Assembly (NCBI RefSeq): GCF_040436345.1
Contig: NC_133232.1
Location: forward strand, 16,248,220 to 16,312,219
Direction: 5' to 3'
Source of the DNA: Pagrus major
Lineage: Eukaryota; Chordata; Actinopteri; Spariformes; Sparidae
DNA length: 64,000 bases
Under the pieces are notes generated by a model. That model made no database searches and had not been told where the DNA came from. It saw only the letters and a list, made by a program, of their open reading frames with translations. Shown in pieces: positions 1-63,495 of this stretch. The translations under genes were made by a program, and so were the position numbers. Position 1 is the stretch's first letter. Every line of letters begins with the position of its first letter.

Positions 1-16105
<16,105 letters not shown>

Positions 16106-53188: not shown

Positions 53189-54230
53189 ACCATATGTTGC
53201 AACTTTTCTTTATGTTAAATTTTCAATTTTATGTTGTGACAATGCCGTGCTTATGGTCTGGTTAGATTTGGCCACAAAAATGGCTTGGTTAGGGTTGGGA
53301 GAGGCTGTTTTTGTGGCTTACTTGGTTCTGTCACACACTAGTGGTTTCTCACTTACAATTGTTTGAACACTGTCTCGAACAGTGTCCTCTGGCTTGTCAG
53401 CCATAAGGTTTCACGACGCTGCCATCCCCTCCACCTTGTCGTGAAAGCCATGTAAGTGAATGTGATGACGTATTGTAGAAATGTCAATTTGTTTCATATT
53501 TAACGTACCTGTGGTTTGCAGAAATGTACAATACTGACATTTAGTTGTGGCGGTTGGGCTGCAAACCATCAGACTAATTCTGCAGAACACACTGCCGGAT
53601 GAAGAGCAAGCAATTATTTCCGAGGTTTTAAGTTCCTCACAAGAAAATACAAAAAAAATTCCACTGACTCTGGCTTTTGTTATCAATTATTATTAGCATT
53701 AGCATTATTATCAAACAGATATCTTTAAATTTGTTGTACAGGCTGGTGGCATCCTGACCCAGCCCTCGCTCTCTGAGAACTCCCACAGACCCCCACACAC
53801 TAAAGGAAACGCACCATCCATCCAAACACGTTGCAGATCAAGTACGACCCTTCACGGGAACAGCATTCCTCAATGGCAAAGTCTCCCTCCCCCAGCAGGA
53901 CAAAAACATAGCAATAGCATAGCAAAAACTGCTTAGGAAGGGTTAGGGTTCTATTATAAAGCTGAAGCAACTAAATGGAATTCAGCCACAGTCATTTCTT
54001 TTATTTATTTACATCTTTGTTATCACTACTCTGACGAGTCAGAATGTCTTTTAAGTAAAATGCTAATCTATTATCTGTCCAGGAAAATCACTGATAATCA
54101 CCTCTCAGCTGTCCTTCGCATATCCACCTCAGACAATAATCTGTCTTGAAGACGGCCCCTATATCAAAATACAGTTTTTAGACCCATTTTACTTGAACTG
54201 ATGTTGCGCTTACATGATGTATTTTGATGA

Positions 54231-54236
54231 ATTAAA
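54231..54236 (+). terminator. Candidate cnga2 polyadenylation signal ATTAAA
   Basis: This is the first plausible hexamer variant about 1 kb after the stop codon. The assignment is tentative because no transcript end is visible. Confidence 0.35.
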
Positions 54237-54287
54237 GACATGCACTGAGAGTTTGAATTTCTTTTCCTCTGGTTAATCTATTCATAC

Positions 54288-54288
<1 letters not shown>

Positions 54289-54338
<50 letters not shown>
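54289..54338. repeat. (TTTC)n microsatellite
   Basis: About 12 tandem CTTT/TTTC units lie downstream of cnga2. Confidence 0.95.
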
Positions 54339-54339
<1 letters not shown>

Positions 54340-55882
54340 TTTTTTCCATTTGCCAGCCTCTCCACTGAAACCCATGGGATTTTTCCTCTCACTCAAATTC
54401 CTCCACTCAGGTTTTTATGCTTAAGAGTGTTTGGCATATAGAAGGAGAAGAAGTCTTGTTGGCTTTGGTTGGTTGTTACCCACACCCATTAACAGGACGT
54501 TCTATATATTTTATAAAAGTTCAAACACAGCTACAACAGTGAAAAGCTGCATACACATTGATACGTTATAGTAGTATTAATGATGCACTTTTACTTTTAA
54601 TACTTTAAGTACATTTTGCTCATGATGCTTCTCTACTTTTACTCAAGTAGGATATTAAATGCAGGACTTTTACTTAAATAAAGAGAAAAAAGGGAGTTTG
54701 ATAAATTCCATGTTGCTGAGGTAAGACAGTTTGTGGTAACTGTGCTGATATTGATGCCGGTAATCCAGACGAACCTCCAGGTAATCATGTATTTAGAAAA
54801 AGGAGAATCGGGGGGTATAGATGCTCTTCACATGTCTGTCTGATCAAATAAATAATAATAAGAATAAAGAGATCCAGCTGTAGTAGTGGTTTGACAGGCT
54901 AAACCAGAGAGTGAAGGAGACTGACTCCAGACCAGCTGACAGGTTGGCTGTCACCCTGTCTCTGCTCCGTACCATCAAACCACGACCCAATCGTCAGAAA
55001 AAATGTTACATTTCTGCAGTGCACAGATTTGTGAACTTTATATTGGAAATATATGGAATTAACACAGCATCACTGTCACATATTTAAATTTTGTGTTTGT
55101 ATTTCAAAGCTTTCTTAATATATGTTTGTTACTTAGCGTTTTAAATCTTTCTGCCTCTCACAATTCCAAACATTTCCAAAAGACATTTATATGACTTTCT
55201 GTAAGATTGTATAGAAAAAAACATTTAAACTGACTAAGAATTTTAAAGGTTGCAGGCACTTGATCTAGAATATATATAAAAAATACAATAACACATGTAC
55301 TAACTGCTTATACTTTGGCTGAAGAGGAGGGTTTACTCAGGAATTCATTTATTGGCTACGATGTTAAGATGGTAATACAGTCCTATGGGAATAGTTTTAG
55401 GTAAAAAAAATAAAATAAATAAACGTACACTTGACTTGTGTCTGAACAGGTGTACAATTATGTTTTTGTCCACAAGGGGGCGTAAAATCTCTATAAATGC
55501 TACTGATTACCTGCCTGCTGTAAGAAGTGATATGCTCCAGTGGATTGTTCTGATTCACGCTTCCTGAATAAAGATAGTAAGACATTTTCACAATGTCAGC
55601 TCATCCACTCTAATCAAAAATAAGAATGTAAAATATGTTGGGTTATATTGTTGGTCAGAGGCTTTTTTCTTTTTCTTAAGTTACTTTGAATCTGTTTCTG
55701 TGTCATACATACATCGTTTTTAAATGCTTTTAACTCCTTGTGAAACTTTTAAAAATATTTTAACTTCATTATGTATCAGCTGCTTCATAACTACAATACT
55801 ATTACATACTACTCTCACATTGACCATTTACTTTGAGCATTATAAAAGACACACTTCAAACACAACTAATACCATGACAGGA

Positions 55883-55885
<3 letters not shown>

Positions 55886-55912
<27 letters not shown>
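55886..55912. repeat. (GT)n microsatellite
   Basis: A short pure GT tract upstream of the calnexin-tail gene. Confidence 0.9.
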
Positions 55913-55915
<3 letters not shown>

Positions 55916-56388
55916 ATGACCATGTCTTATGTGGCCACTGCATGCTCTACAACCATGTCAGCAAGTGACTTGGGACCAAAGTCCAACATCACATGACATG
56001 TGAAGATTTCAGGAAGTGACTTTTAAGGAACGTGTGGAAACTGAGAAATCACTGTTAATAAGGTAGAAACATACTGTTCAGTCATCTGTGGCTCCATCTG
56101 TGCTGCTCTTCATTTCACTCTCATTGTAGTCTTCTTTGTTTTTTGTCCCTCTCTGCTTCCCTTTTCTTTCTCGCCTTTGCTCTCTCTGTTCATGATCGTC
56201 TTTCTCTCCCTCTGTGTCGTTTATCTTTCTGATCTTTGTGCTCATATAATAGATTGAGAAAGAAAGATTACAATGGAGTGTGTTTCACATTGCGCGTGCA
56301 CATGTAAATGTGCAGTATATTCACTGTTACTGTGTGTATGTGGACATTCTTATGTGCATGTGTGTGCACGTAGGTGTGAGTTTCAGAC

Positions 56389-59019
56389 ATGGAGATCGAC
56401 TTTGTGTTGCTGTACACGCTGCTGGTGGCCAGTGTGACACCAGCGTCTGCTGCCGCACAGGTAAGACCTGCTTTTCATTTGAATGAATGAAGTCTATTAA
56501 TCACTGTTATGAAAAGAGAGTGTTTTTTCTTTTACTTTTTAAAACTTTATTGATGCTGACACACATTCACAGAGACATATAAATCATAAACAGTGAACGT
56601 TTAATCAATACATGAAAATCAATGTAGAGACAATAAGCATGGGTAAAACAAAAAGTTAGCTTTATGGTTCTGTAGTTTATCAATAGTGCTACAATCTATT
56701 TTTAAATTACCTTTAAAGTGTTCGCTTGCTTAATTAATTATAGGGTAACTCCACCAATTTTCCACATTAAAGGGGAGTACTACTGCACATGTTAAAAAAA
56801 GTAGTTGAAAGCCTTTCATGGCTTCAGAGGAAGCTGCATGTAATCTGATAAATTGCCTCCAGTGATGTCACTCAGTGGCTCAGTTGCATTGTGGGCAATG
56901 CAGGCTCCAGTCTTTGAAAAGGAAGAAGAATGTGTTGGGAAATAAAGGTCAAATCTCTGGTTCAGTTTTGGTTTCAAACTGTCCATAATGAGTCCAACAG
57001 TGTTGTAGGAGTGCATAACCTGGTGCCTACATTACCCACAATGCAATTTACCCACTGAGATTACACGCAGCATCCTCTGGACCCACAAAACACTTTATAT
57101 ACTACTTTTTTCCAACATGCTTTAATGTTTGAAATTGGTAGAGTAACCCTTTAATTGTTGTACTTTATACAACCGATGTAATAACCCTGATCCACCTCAG
57201 CTGTCATTTTTTGTACTATCATGTACAAATCATGTCAAAGTCAAGTCAAAGTCTAAGTTCAAAAGTTTTAAAATTAAAAATGTTTTTGAAAATAAAAAAA
57301 TCTGCATAATCAAATGATCAGGTTTCTACAGTTTAGATTTAGATAGACCAAAATGCAATAACATACACTTTTTGTTACCGCACAGCAACACCTGTTTCTA
57401 GTTTTAATAAGGGCTCCATGTGCTGGCAATACTCATACACCATCTGGTGCTCTGGTATATAAATACATATACATAAATTACATTTACATTGATATTAAAT
57501 TCACCGTGTTCTCTGTAGCTTTTAAGCTCTCCCTCCTAAATGATGCCTCTTCACCACCTTTTTGATCCACTATGTTCTCCCTTTATCACTTCTTCTAATC
57601 CTTCTTCCATGCGATCATTTTTTATGGGTATCCAGGCACTGTGGAATGATCTGTCACCTTTCTATACTATTGGTTGCATGTTGACATGTATGCATGTTTA
57701 TATACAGTAGGTTGATAGATATTATATAACAGGCGTATATATGTGTATTCCAGCCTGGTATCATAGAGAGCCTCCTATTGGCCACCGTCCAGCGACCCTG
57801 GCTCTGGGGTGTCTATGTCTTCACCGTTGGACTTCCCATCATTCTCTTTATAAGCTTCATGTGGCCTGACAAGGTAGAGTATGCATGGTTATGTGTGTGT
57901 AGATTTGTCTGAGTTATTGTAAAGATTTAGAGGTGGCTGTGGCTTGGTCCTCAAGACAAATAGTGAAGCTACAGTACAAGAAATCAGATTGTGTGTGTGT
58001 TTGCCTGCAGAGGTTTGGACCCCCTGATCAAGAGTATTACTATAAGAAGTCTGATGATGATCAGCCAGATGATGTGAAGTTCACACAGAGCACAGAATCA
58101 GTGGATATCAAAGGTAATGTTTTATGTTTTAGATGATCAAGTATTATGAGGAAGTAGAGGTAGAGTAGCTGCAGTGATTCTTCTCTTCTCTTCTCTTCTC
58201 TTCTCTTCTCTTCTCTTCTCTTCTCTTCTCTTCTCTTCTCCTCGTCTTGTTTTTTCTACGTTTAGGAAAGGCTGACAAAGCTGTAACAAGGAGGAGAGAC
58301 GCTCATGGTAGCCAGAGGAAGTCTGACTTAGACCTGAAGGTGAGATCCAGCAGGCAGTGTAGAGGTGATAATGACTTCTGAAGGTGTAAAAGCACACTTG
58401 AAAGAATTGATGTATCACAGAGCTATCAAATGACACTGAAATTGTATGATGGATAGATACGAAGTATGAGCTGGTTTCTAATCATAATGTGCTCAATAAT
58501 ACATTGTGTCAATGTACAAAAACATACATTATAGTTTGCCTGACTGAAATGAATGGTGACGCAGCTCATTTTATAAATAACCAATGGCCGCATTTTCAGA
58601 AATGTCCCGGCAACTGCAGAATCCAAGAAATGCCTGGTAAAGAGGTGATACAGCACCAGCAAAACCTCTGACTTGTAACATTGATTCATTCGGGTTGAGC
58701 TATTTATTTGGGTTACTTTATCTGGCAACGCTGGACCTTTAATTATTACCCTTTTAAGTTTGTAGAGGTTATGTTTGAGGCCATTCAAGCACATTTTACT
58801 TGTTGCCTCGCCAAATTAGCATATTAAATTGAACAGACATTTTATTACAGTGCTGATTTCATTACCACAACCCTTGTAAATGTTTTTGAATATCAATGAC
58901 TATTAAACCCATGATTTACAAAGTCCACTCTTGTATTAGTGGCCTCGAGCATGTCCTTGAAACTGTGGATAATGAAAACTGATTGTGTGTTTGTGTGTGT
59001 GTGTGTGTAGGATCACTGA
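56389..59019 (+). CDS. Small calnexin/calmegin-tail-like single-pass membrane protein
   Basis: Exons: 56389-56460, 57754-57873, 58011-58113, 58266-58339, 59011-59019, giving 378 nt and 125 residues. Residues 1 to about 22 look like a signal peptide (MEIDFVLLYTLLVASVTPASA). Residues 25-64 match the segment of calnexin and calmegin just before and across the membrane (ESLLLATVQRPWLW, then a hydrophobic stretch ending FMWPDK). The cytosolic tail starts like theirs (EYYYKKSDDDQPD against EYKKTDAPQPD in human calnexin). The lectin and P domains are absent, and none of their exons are recognisable upstream. Topology would be type I in the ER. The calnexin palmitoylation cysteines after the membrane are missing. 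An in-frame TGA lies 12 bases upstream of the ATG, supporting this start. The last exon is uncertain: acceptors at 59023 and 59028 would give tails ending at 59113 or 59073. Function unknown. Confidence 0.7.
58181..58240. repeat. (TTCTC)n pentanucleotide microsatellite
   Basis: Twelve perfect TTCTC units lie in the intron between exons 58011-58113 and 58266-58339 of the calnexin-tail gene, ending about 25 bp from the next acceptor. The tract is all-pyrimidine on the coding strand. Confidence 0.95.
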
Positions 59020-59108
59020 TCAGTGCAGCGACCTCAGGAGAGGAAAGAACACCAACACACAAGAGGACGCTGAGCAAGCTCATCCACGGCCAGTCGTTCT
59101 GATGACTG

Positions 59109-59114
59109 AATAAA
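59109..59114 (+). terminator. Polyadenylation signal of the calnexin-tail gene
   Basis: AATAAA lies about 90 bp after the proposed stop at 59019 and partly overlaps the stop codon of one alternative reading (59111-59113). It supports a genuine transcript ending here. Confidence 0.65.
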
Positions 59115-59416
59115 ACTACACATTGTGAACGCAATAGTATCTGAGCACTGACTGTCAGATTTGTATTTTTTTATATTATTCATACATATAGGCCTAAATG
59201 AAATATTTTTCCATTCGAATGTATTATTTGTAGTGCCCATACACTTACAGACCATTATGAAATATGTTGATCTTTGCTTGTCAGAGTATTTCATTTGAAG
59301 TTGGAATAAAGGGTTTGAACTCCTCAGCTTTTCTTCTAGTAGAGCATCAAAGGTTAAATAGTACACAATTTTGTCTCATCATGTCAGGTCTGTCAGCTGA
59401 TTGGATATAAAATGAG

Positions 59417-62618: not shown

Positions 62619-62871
62619 TTTACTACGGAAGCCCTAAAGGGCCATGCATTCATATATTTTATTTCCTCCGTTTTCCCGTGATAACGAGTTAATTTCATTT
62701 GTTTTCTCGAGATCTCAAGTTATTATCTCGAAATAACAACTGCCGTTTTCCCGAGATAACGGGATAATTTTCTCGAGATCTCGAGATAACAAAACTTTGT
62801 TTTCCCGAGATAACGATATAATTAATTCGAGATCTTGAGAAAACAAAACGATAGTGTAGTATATTAAATCA

Positions 62872-63495
62872 TTGCAGGAAACATCATTAAGTGTAGCAAT
62901 GTCAGAGGAGCAGGAGCATATCGATCACCACGTCACATATCTTTTCAATCAAGGCCTGACACAGGCTGAAATAGCATTATGCCTTGCTATTACAGATAAT
63001 ATACACATTAGTGTGCGTAATCTAAAAAGATGGTTAGCAAGGCTTCAGCTATATCGGCGGTGCAATCTCAGTGAGCCTGATGTCGTCCTTAACTACATAG
63101 CTGACCAGCTACGAGGTCTCGAGCGTCTCCATAATCTCAGGCCTATCATATCACAGTCATTATCTCGAGATCTCAAATTAATTATATCGTTATCTCGGGA
63201 AACCAAGTTTCATTATCTCGAGATCTCGAGAAAATTATCCCGTTATCTCGGGAAAACAAAGTTTAATTATCTCGAAATCTCGAGAAAATTATCCCGTTAT
63301 CTCGGGAAAACAAAGTTTAATTATCTCGAAATCTCGAGAAAATTATCCCGTTATCTCGGGAAAACAATGTTTCATTATCTCGAGATCTCGAGAAAATTAT
63401 CCCGTTATCTCGTGAAAACAAAGTTTCGTTATCTCGAGATCTCCAGAAAATTATCCCGTTATCTCAGGAAAACGGCAGTTGTTATTTCGAGATAA
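62872..63495 (+). pseudogene. Integrase-like N-terminal fragment fused to repeat-coded tail
   Basis: The open frame encodes 207 residues; a second ATG at 62899 is equally possible. Residues about 15-95 (for example YLFNQGLTQAEIALCLA, NLKRWLARLQLYRR, YIADQLRGLERLHNLRP) resemble the helix-turn-helix N-terminus of integrase-type proteins found in many fish and invertebrate genomes, which in full length continue into a DDE catalytic core. Here that homology stops after LHNLRP. The remainder is 18-residue units (like KFNYLEISRKLSRYLGKT) read through the 54-bp repeats. The DDE core is missing, so it is not an active enzyme. I recalled the family without a search. Confidence 0.55.
63211..63480. repeat. 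Five tandem 54-bp repeats
   Basis: Units start at 63211, 63265, 63319, 63373 and 63427, each exactly 54 bp with only a few substitutions and no indels. Each contains a palindromic TCTCGAGATCTCGAGA-like half and a CCCGTTATCTCGGG half. Because 54 is a multiple of three the reading frame stays open throughout. Single related units occur in the inverted repeats. Confidence 0.93.

Follow-up and report, generated by a model that had tools for sequence, protein, structure and literature searches.

The stretch of DNA analysed here (the window) comprises 64,000 nucleotides of the Pagrus major genome (C18:16248220-16312219, plus strand; genome of 786 Mb in 25 contigs) and contains no N. It holds a compact gene, the mini-gene, whose five exons join into an open frame of 125 residues that begins with MEIDF, runs to LDLK and closes with DH. 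The mini-gene starts about 3.2 kb past the last coding-like piece (end 53185) of a cyclic-nucleotide-gated (CNG) channel gene on the same strand. The C-terminal part of this neighbour is closer to CNGA2 (179 bits vs 170 for CNGA1), the pore-linker part to CNGA1 (158 bits vs 154 for CNGA2). An LCP1/plastin-like gene (LCP1 95 bits, plastin-3 89) is located farther upstream, and positions 2294-11658 of the minus strand carry what we take, by eye, to be RNA polymerase I large-subunit-like exons. At 62860-63492 there is an open frame with repeated units (SRKLSRYLGKTKFNYLEI...), and the stretch before it is reminiscent of fish integrase-like proteins. The features of the mini-gene are:

56377..56379, plus strand: in-frame stop TGA upstream of the start codon, directly before VSDM
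56380..56386, plus strand: candidate splice acceptor gtttcag, 2 bases 5' of the ATG (consensus reading only)
56389..56460, plus strand: exon 1, predicted signal peptide MEIDFVLLYTLLVASVTPASAAAQ, phase-0 donor CAG/gtaag
56461..57753, plus strand: intron 1, 1293 bases, at the position of the luminal exons in calnexin/calmegin
56736..57156, no strand assigned: palindromic MITE-like element in intron 1 (outer arms 37 nt, 84% complementary; inner arms 40 nt, 85%)
57754..57873, plus strand: exon 2, phase 0/0, membrane segment PGIIESLLLATVQRPWLWGVYVFTVGLPIILFISFMWPDK, homolog of the membrane exon of calnexin/calmegin
58011..58113, plus strand: exon 3, phase 0/1, juxtamembrane part of the cytosolic tail, RFGPPDQEYYYKKSDDDQPDDVK...
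58266..58339, plus strand: exon 4, phase 1/0, basic stretches in the tail (RRR...QRK), no homolog detectable
59011..59019, plus strand: exon 5, coding part DH and stop, first acceptor (other starts 59024 and 59029)
59109..59114, plus strand: AATAAA polyadenylation signal

All donors of the mini-gene are gt, and the acceptors read cag, cag, tag and, before the last exon, again tag. The original prediction of a five-exon gene for 125 residues is confirmed in its exons, consensus splice sites, upstream in-frame stop and AATAAA. The weak point of the model is the last exon. Splicing at two more AG, with their ends at 59023 and 59028, would yield the C-terminus CSDLRRGKNTNTQEDAEQAHPRPVVLMTE or RPQERKEHQHTRGR, each followed by a stop, and DH is one of three candidate ends. 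A C-terminal ER-retention motif of the RKPRRE type is not recognisable in any of the three predicted ends; the species' own canx ends in RKVRRD and its own clgn in RKRRVRKD. Of the three alternatives within 59011-59113, the end reached from the third acceptor carries RK and RGR and loosely resembles the basic C-terminus of calnexin.

Exons 2 and 3 show firm homology to the calnexin family. A phmmer search of the 125 residues against the PDB returned a single match to E 10, calnexin chain 8rjc_9 (E 4.7e-13, residues 19-105). In the own genome, five matches were obtained to E 10: the mini-gene's two exons, the membrane exons of clgn (E 1.6e-7, C1:30.93 Mb) and canx (E 1e-4, C18:5.55 Mb), and one piece on C2 that contains stops and is at chance level (E 5.7). 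A second copy of the mini-gene was not found in this search (to E 10; 6 of 6 candidates scored). Own canx and clgn were named by tblastn with human CANX and CLGN sequences and by their tails. The membrane exon measures 39-40 codons in canx, clgn and the mini-gene, and that of the mini-gene is identical to clgn at 22/39 and to canx at 19/39 residues (one column dropped). The three genes also have in common, as read by eye, the phases 0/0 of the membrane exon, 0/1 of the tail exon and 1/0 of the next exon. The earlier claim of an exon matching the calnexin/calmegin membrane segment, followed by a tail, is therefore upheld by the PDB and own-genome matches and the shared phases, and these matches together with the sum of the codon scores (see below) make the mini-gene more than chance.

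Within the family, the mini-gene is probably a calmegin-side paralog, judged from an alignment that is too short for dating. The tree was built from the membrane and tail exons (66 columns) of five sequences, two of them human. The split of calmegin plus mini-gene versus calnexin received a bootstrap of 98, with a long mini-gene branch. Three calmegin-side placements are equally good. The two on the canx side are rejected by the AU test (p 0.048 and 0.022) but not by the KH and SH tests (p 0.06-0.08). No shared neighbour gene was recognised when window ORFs of at least 25 aa were compared with the 200 kb around clgn (E <=1e-3); the 31 rows obtained were the membrane exon and 30 others, one of them reverse-transcriptase-like and the remaining ones repeat-like by appearance. 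No segmental duplication with the clgn region is visible. A search of viral contigs for relatives gave 21 pattern matches and none confirmed, and no fish calnexin without a luminal domain was found in the literature searched. MGAT4-family exons were seen on the mini-gene's chromosome at C18:5.48-5.51 Mb, about 30 kb from own canx, and at C18:10.99-11.02 Mb. They are a possible trace of an old 2R paralogon and prove nothing.

Cleavage of the predicted signal peptide after ASA would leave a protein of about 104 residues (12.0 kDa) with neither a cysteine nor an N-glycosylation sequon, in which a single helix separates some 16 luminal residues from about 60 in the cytosolic tail. The mini-protein has no luminal domain for binding glycans, ERp57 or calcium. 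The helix keeps the RPWLW edge of the calnexin family and the mid-helix proline (human Pro494 position), and the calnexin palmitoylation cysteines 502/503 are replaced by M and W (own clgn keeps one of the two). In the tail, counted as 64 residues, 15 are acidic and 14 basic, and the tails of own canx and clgn are strongly acidic. The tail motif EYYYKKSDDDQPD is kept and aligns with calnexin EYKKTD..QPD. This motif favours a reading in which the product of an intact gene works through its tail and not its helix, as a calnexin-tail scaffold that would signal to the cytosol like fission yeast S_Cnx1p; according to a passage in PMC4372366, the S. pombe calnexin piece of membrane segment plus tail is needed in starvation. 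Beyond EYYYKKSDDDQPD, however, the tail is unlike that of both paralogs, being short, charge-balanced and without RKPRRE, and a working role centred on the tail is in our view doubtful.

The training set for the codon scores comprised 1487 codons, taken from exons of own canx, clgn and the calreticulin-like genes and from a single CNG exon. In the expected frame, exons 1-4 score 5.3, 5.4, 7.9 and 4.3. Among 2000 open pieces drawn at random from the window, a null from which real exons were not excluded, 33, 68, 27 and 54, respectively, reach these values, and the four-exon sum is reached by 0 of 2000 null sets. Reverse frames can come near the forward values of exons 1 and 2 (one of exon 1 scores 4.9, one of exon 2 scores 5.1). 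Substitutions in the membrane exon were estimated with NG86; other estimators of dN/dS gave no value for several pairs. Against clgn, dN is 0.38, dS is not computable and 28/39 third positions differ; against canx, the corresponding values are 0.45, 2.9 and 25/39. Across the three membrane exons, dN ranges from 0.30 to 0.45, dS is 2.0, 2.9 and not computable, and 24-28/39 third positions differ. Silent sites near saturation combined with 19-22/39 kept residues argue for long maintenance. The membrane core (RPWLW to W) has 10 changes against clgn and 9 against canx, all to uncharged residues; among the one-step nonsynonymous changes of the clgn core, 46/152 would lead to D, E, K, R, H, N, Q or P, and 10 changes to a stop. 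Neutral evolution was simulated in 2000 runs per level with an assumed indel rate: frame and splice sites stayed intact, with no frameshift, in 30.5%, 4.2%, 0.5% and 0/2000 of the runs at 0.02, 0.05, 0.08 and 0.15 substitutions/site. Codon usage, splice-site reading and simulation agree with the original argument that an open frame with intact splice sites speaks against simple decay.

These data suggest that the gene has been under selection for most of its existence, with a very recent loss of constraint possible, and the argument for constraint leans on a long and partly shared branch. The same data bear on the idea of a young pseudogene, that is, a decaying calmegin-like copy without luminal exons whose frame is open by luck. 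Luminal exons, palmitoylation cysteines and retention motif are all missing, the membrane exon has evolved faster than in the paralogs (three-point dN, calculated by hand, about 0.27 for the mini-gene vs 0.19 for canx and 0.11 for clgn), and close to a third of the simulated neutral copies, the 30.5% at 0.02 substitutions/site, still look intact. We nevertheless regard this scenario as improbable, given four exons with intact splice sites, coding-like codon usage even in exons 1 and 4 (both without a detectable homolog), a membrane core that stays uncharged and a simulation that disfavours older neutral decay.

The claim that chaperone domains are missing was corroborated: neither the gene with its introns nor the window as a whole showed a luminal domain. 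The PF00262 profile gave 25 exon matches at five loci of the whole genome (canx 6, clgn 7, three calreticulin-like loci 4 each) and 0 in the window (23 of 23 candidates scored). A Pfam search of the 125-residue protein returned 0 families to E 10, and the membrane exon was the sole match (E <=1) when the human CANX and CLGN sequences were compared with the window. A more sensitive tblastn search with 18 own luminal pieces showed no luminal remnant above shuffles on the plus strand of 53201-59200; among the 20 matches listed the best had 18.9 bits, vs 16.9-23.5 bits in 20 shuffles. Three of four controls were recovered at their expected positions, the two membrane exons with 54 and 44 bits and the canx tail exon with 20.8 bits. 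The fourth control, the clgn tail exon, was absent among the matches listed for this region, so that a very diverged luminal exon could escape such a search. That the locus is an ordinary full calmegin gene, with luminal exons missed or lying elsewhere because of other splicing or an assembly gap, is very improbable, as the window has no N and none of the 25 luminal-domain exon matches, the five luminal loci resemble canx, clgn and three genes of calreticulin type, and the region upstream holds a CNG-channel gene on the same strand. By domain content the mini-gene is not a calnexin chaperone; it is related to calnexin by descent and has a microProtein-like architecture.

The putative signal peptide combines a hydrophobic core and an ASA/AA cleavage site with an acidic n-region. 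Under a crude signal-peptide rule, 21 of 744 open ATG frames of the window are as strong, own canx passes and own clgn fails. The donor of the signal exon is in phase 0 in canx, clgn and the mini-gene (read by eye), and the distance from candidate acceptor to ATG is 3 bases in own canx, 0 in own clgn and 2 in the mini-gene, where the candidate acceptor has a weak tract and a further AG just upstream. In canx and clgn the signal exon extends across an acidic segment as far as a phase-0 junction ahead of VTYK; exon 1 of the mini-gene ends right behind the predicted signal peptide, also in phase 0. Since no luminal remnant was found, membrane and tail exons are homologous, and phases and acceptor are shared, we read the mini-gene as a calnexin-family paralog that would have lost its luminal exons and retained a shortened ancestral signal exon. 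The simplest account of its origin would be loss of the luminal exons together with an early donor arising in the ancestral signal exon. A foreign signal exon acquired by exon shuffling is less likely than a shortened ancestral one, because position and phase of the signal exon match canx and clgn. It had been proposed that a signal exon was joined directly to the membrane exon after loss of the luminal exons; the loss stands, and in place of a separately joined-in exon we see an ancestral exon that probably ended early. The MITE-like palindrome (56736-57156) lies within intron 1, the place of the luminal exons in calnexin/calmegin.

Our preferred reading, to which we assign a probability of roughly 0.6, is that the mini-gene is a real coding calnexin/calmegin paralog which has lost its luminal exons, is made up of a shortened signal exon, the exon for the membrane segment and a short, rewritten tail, and has a membrane microProtein-like role. 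Most likely, the mini-protein would reside in the ER membrane and, in the manner of a microProtein, either partner or compete there with calmegin/calnexin. It would do so through the helix face with which calnexin may contact membrane partners and clients, and the cytosolic tail might serve as a small scaffold; expression, signal cleavage, ER location and partners are all predicted. As to the helix, one section of PMC9913998 reports that replacement of Pro494 impairs the interaction of calnexin with the ribosome-translocon complex and that palmitoylation of C502/C503 promotes it. PMC11186639 provisionally attributes to calnexin a transmembrane domain that lies, together with a cytosolic helix, on TRAP gamma, an assignment doubted by the reviewers there, and a secondary statement in PMC11513070 has it that misfolded transmembrane domains are recognised by calnexin. 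With its cysteines replaced by M and W, the mini-protein may lack the TRAP/translocon role, and the kept proline and RPWLW in the absence of both cysteines favour an un-palmitoylated, membrane-only partner or competitor over a translocon-docked chaperone.

More tentatively, and possible rather than probable, the mini-gene could be an ancient third member of the calnexin family in fishes that selection has kept as a dedicated membrane-only regulator, one in which intramembrane client or translocon recognition has been split from lectin chaperoning. If this were true, membrane recognition would be encoded here by a gene of its own, whereas in fission yeast proteolysis yields such a piece. Recent work sees in the membrane segment of calnexin more than an anchor, with a helix that recognises clients by itself and may dock close to the translocon. 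A natural membrane-only gene would allow the activity of the calnexin helix to be tested apart from glycan binding, and the mini-gene would add a case from the animal ER to the regulators that arise by domain loss.

Calmegin and calnexin have about 600 residues, the mini-protein 125. They have in common the homologous membrane exon, the same membrane and tail phases, calnexin's EY(Y)KK.D..QPD motif and the mid-helix proline; in contrast, no lectin or P domain was found in the mini-protein, and it is without the cysteines, the strongly acidic tail and RKPRRE. In fission yeast, according to the sections of PMC4372366 that bear on the point, calnexin is cleaved into a luminal piece and a piece of membrane segment plus tail, both of which are required in starvation. 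The engineered allele mini_cnx1 (52 luminal residues plus membrane segment and tail) is described in the same sections as giving wild-type growth in exponential phase and failing in nitrogen starvation, where a co-expressed luminal plus membrane piece rescues it (PMC4372366). The halves of S. pombe calnexin can hence work in trans, as a separate membrane-and-tail gene would need. The mini-protein resembles mini_Cnx1p and S_Cnx1p, as these are presented there, in combining a membrane segment with a cytosolic tail without a chaperone domain. It differs from them in coming from a separate gene, whereas mini_cnx1 was made by engineering and S_Cnx1p arises by proteolysis, and in having about 16 predicted luminal residues vs 52 in mini_cnx1 (PMC4372366). 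The microProteins given as examples in a portion of PMC9162457 are plant regulators, whereas ours is a predicted ER membrane protein with a putative dominant-negative action; like them, it is small, is the kin of a multi-domain protein after domain loss and may have kept a possible interaction segment.
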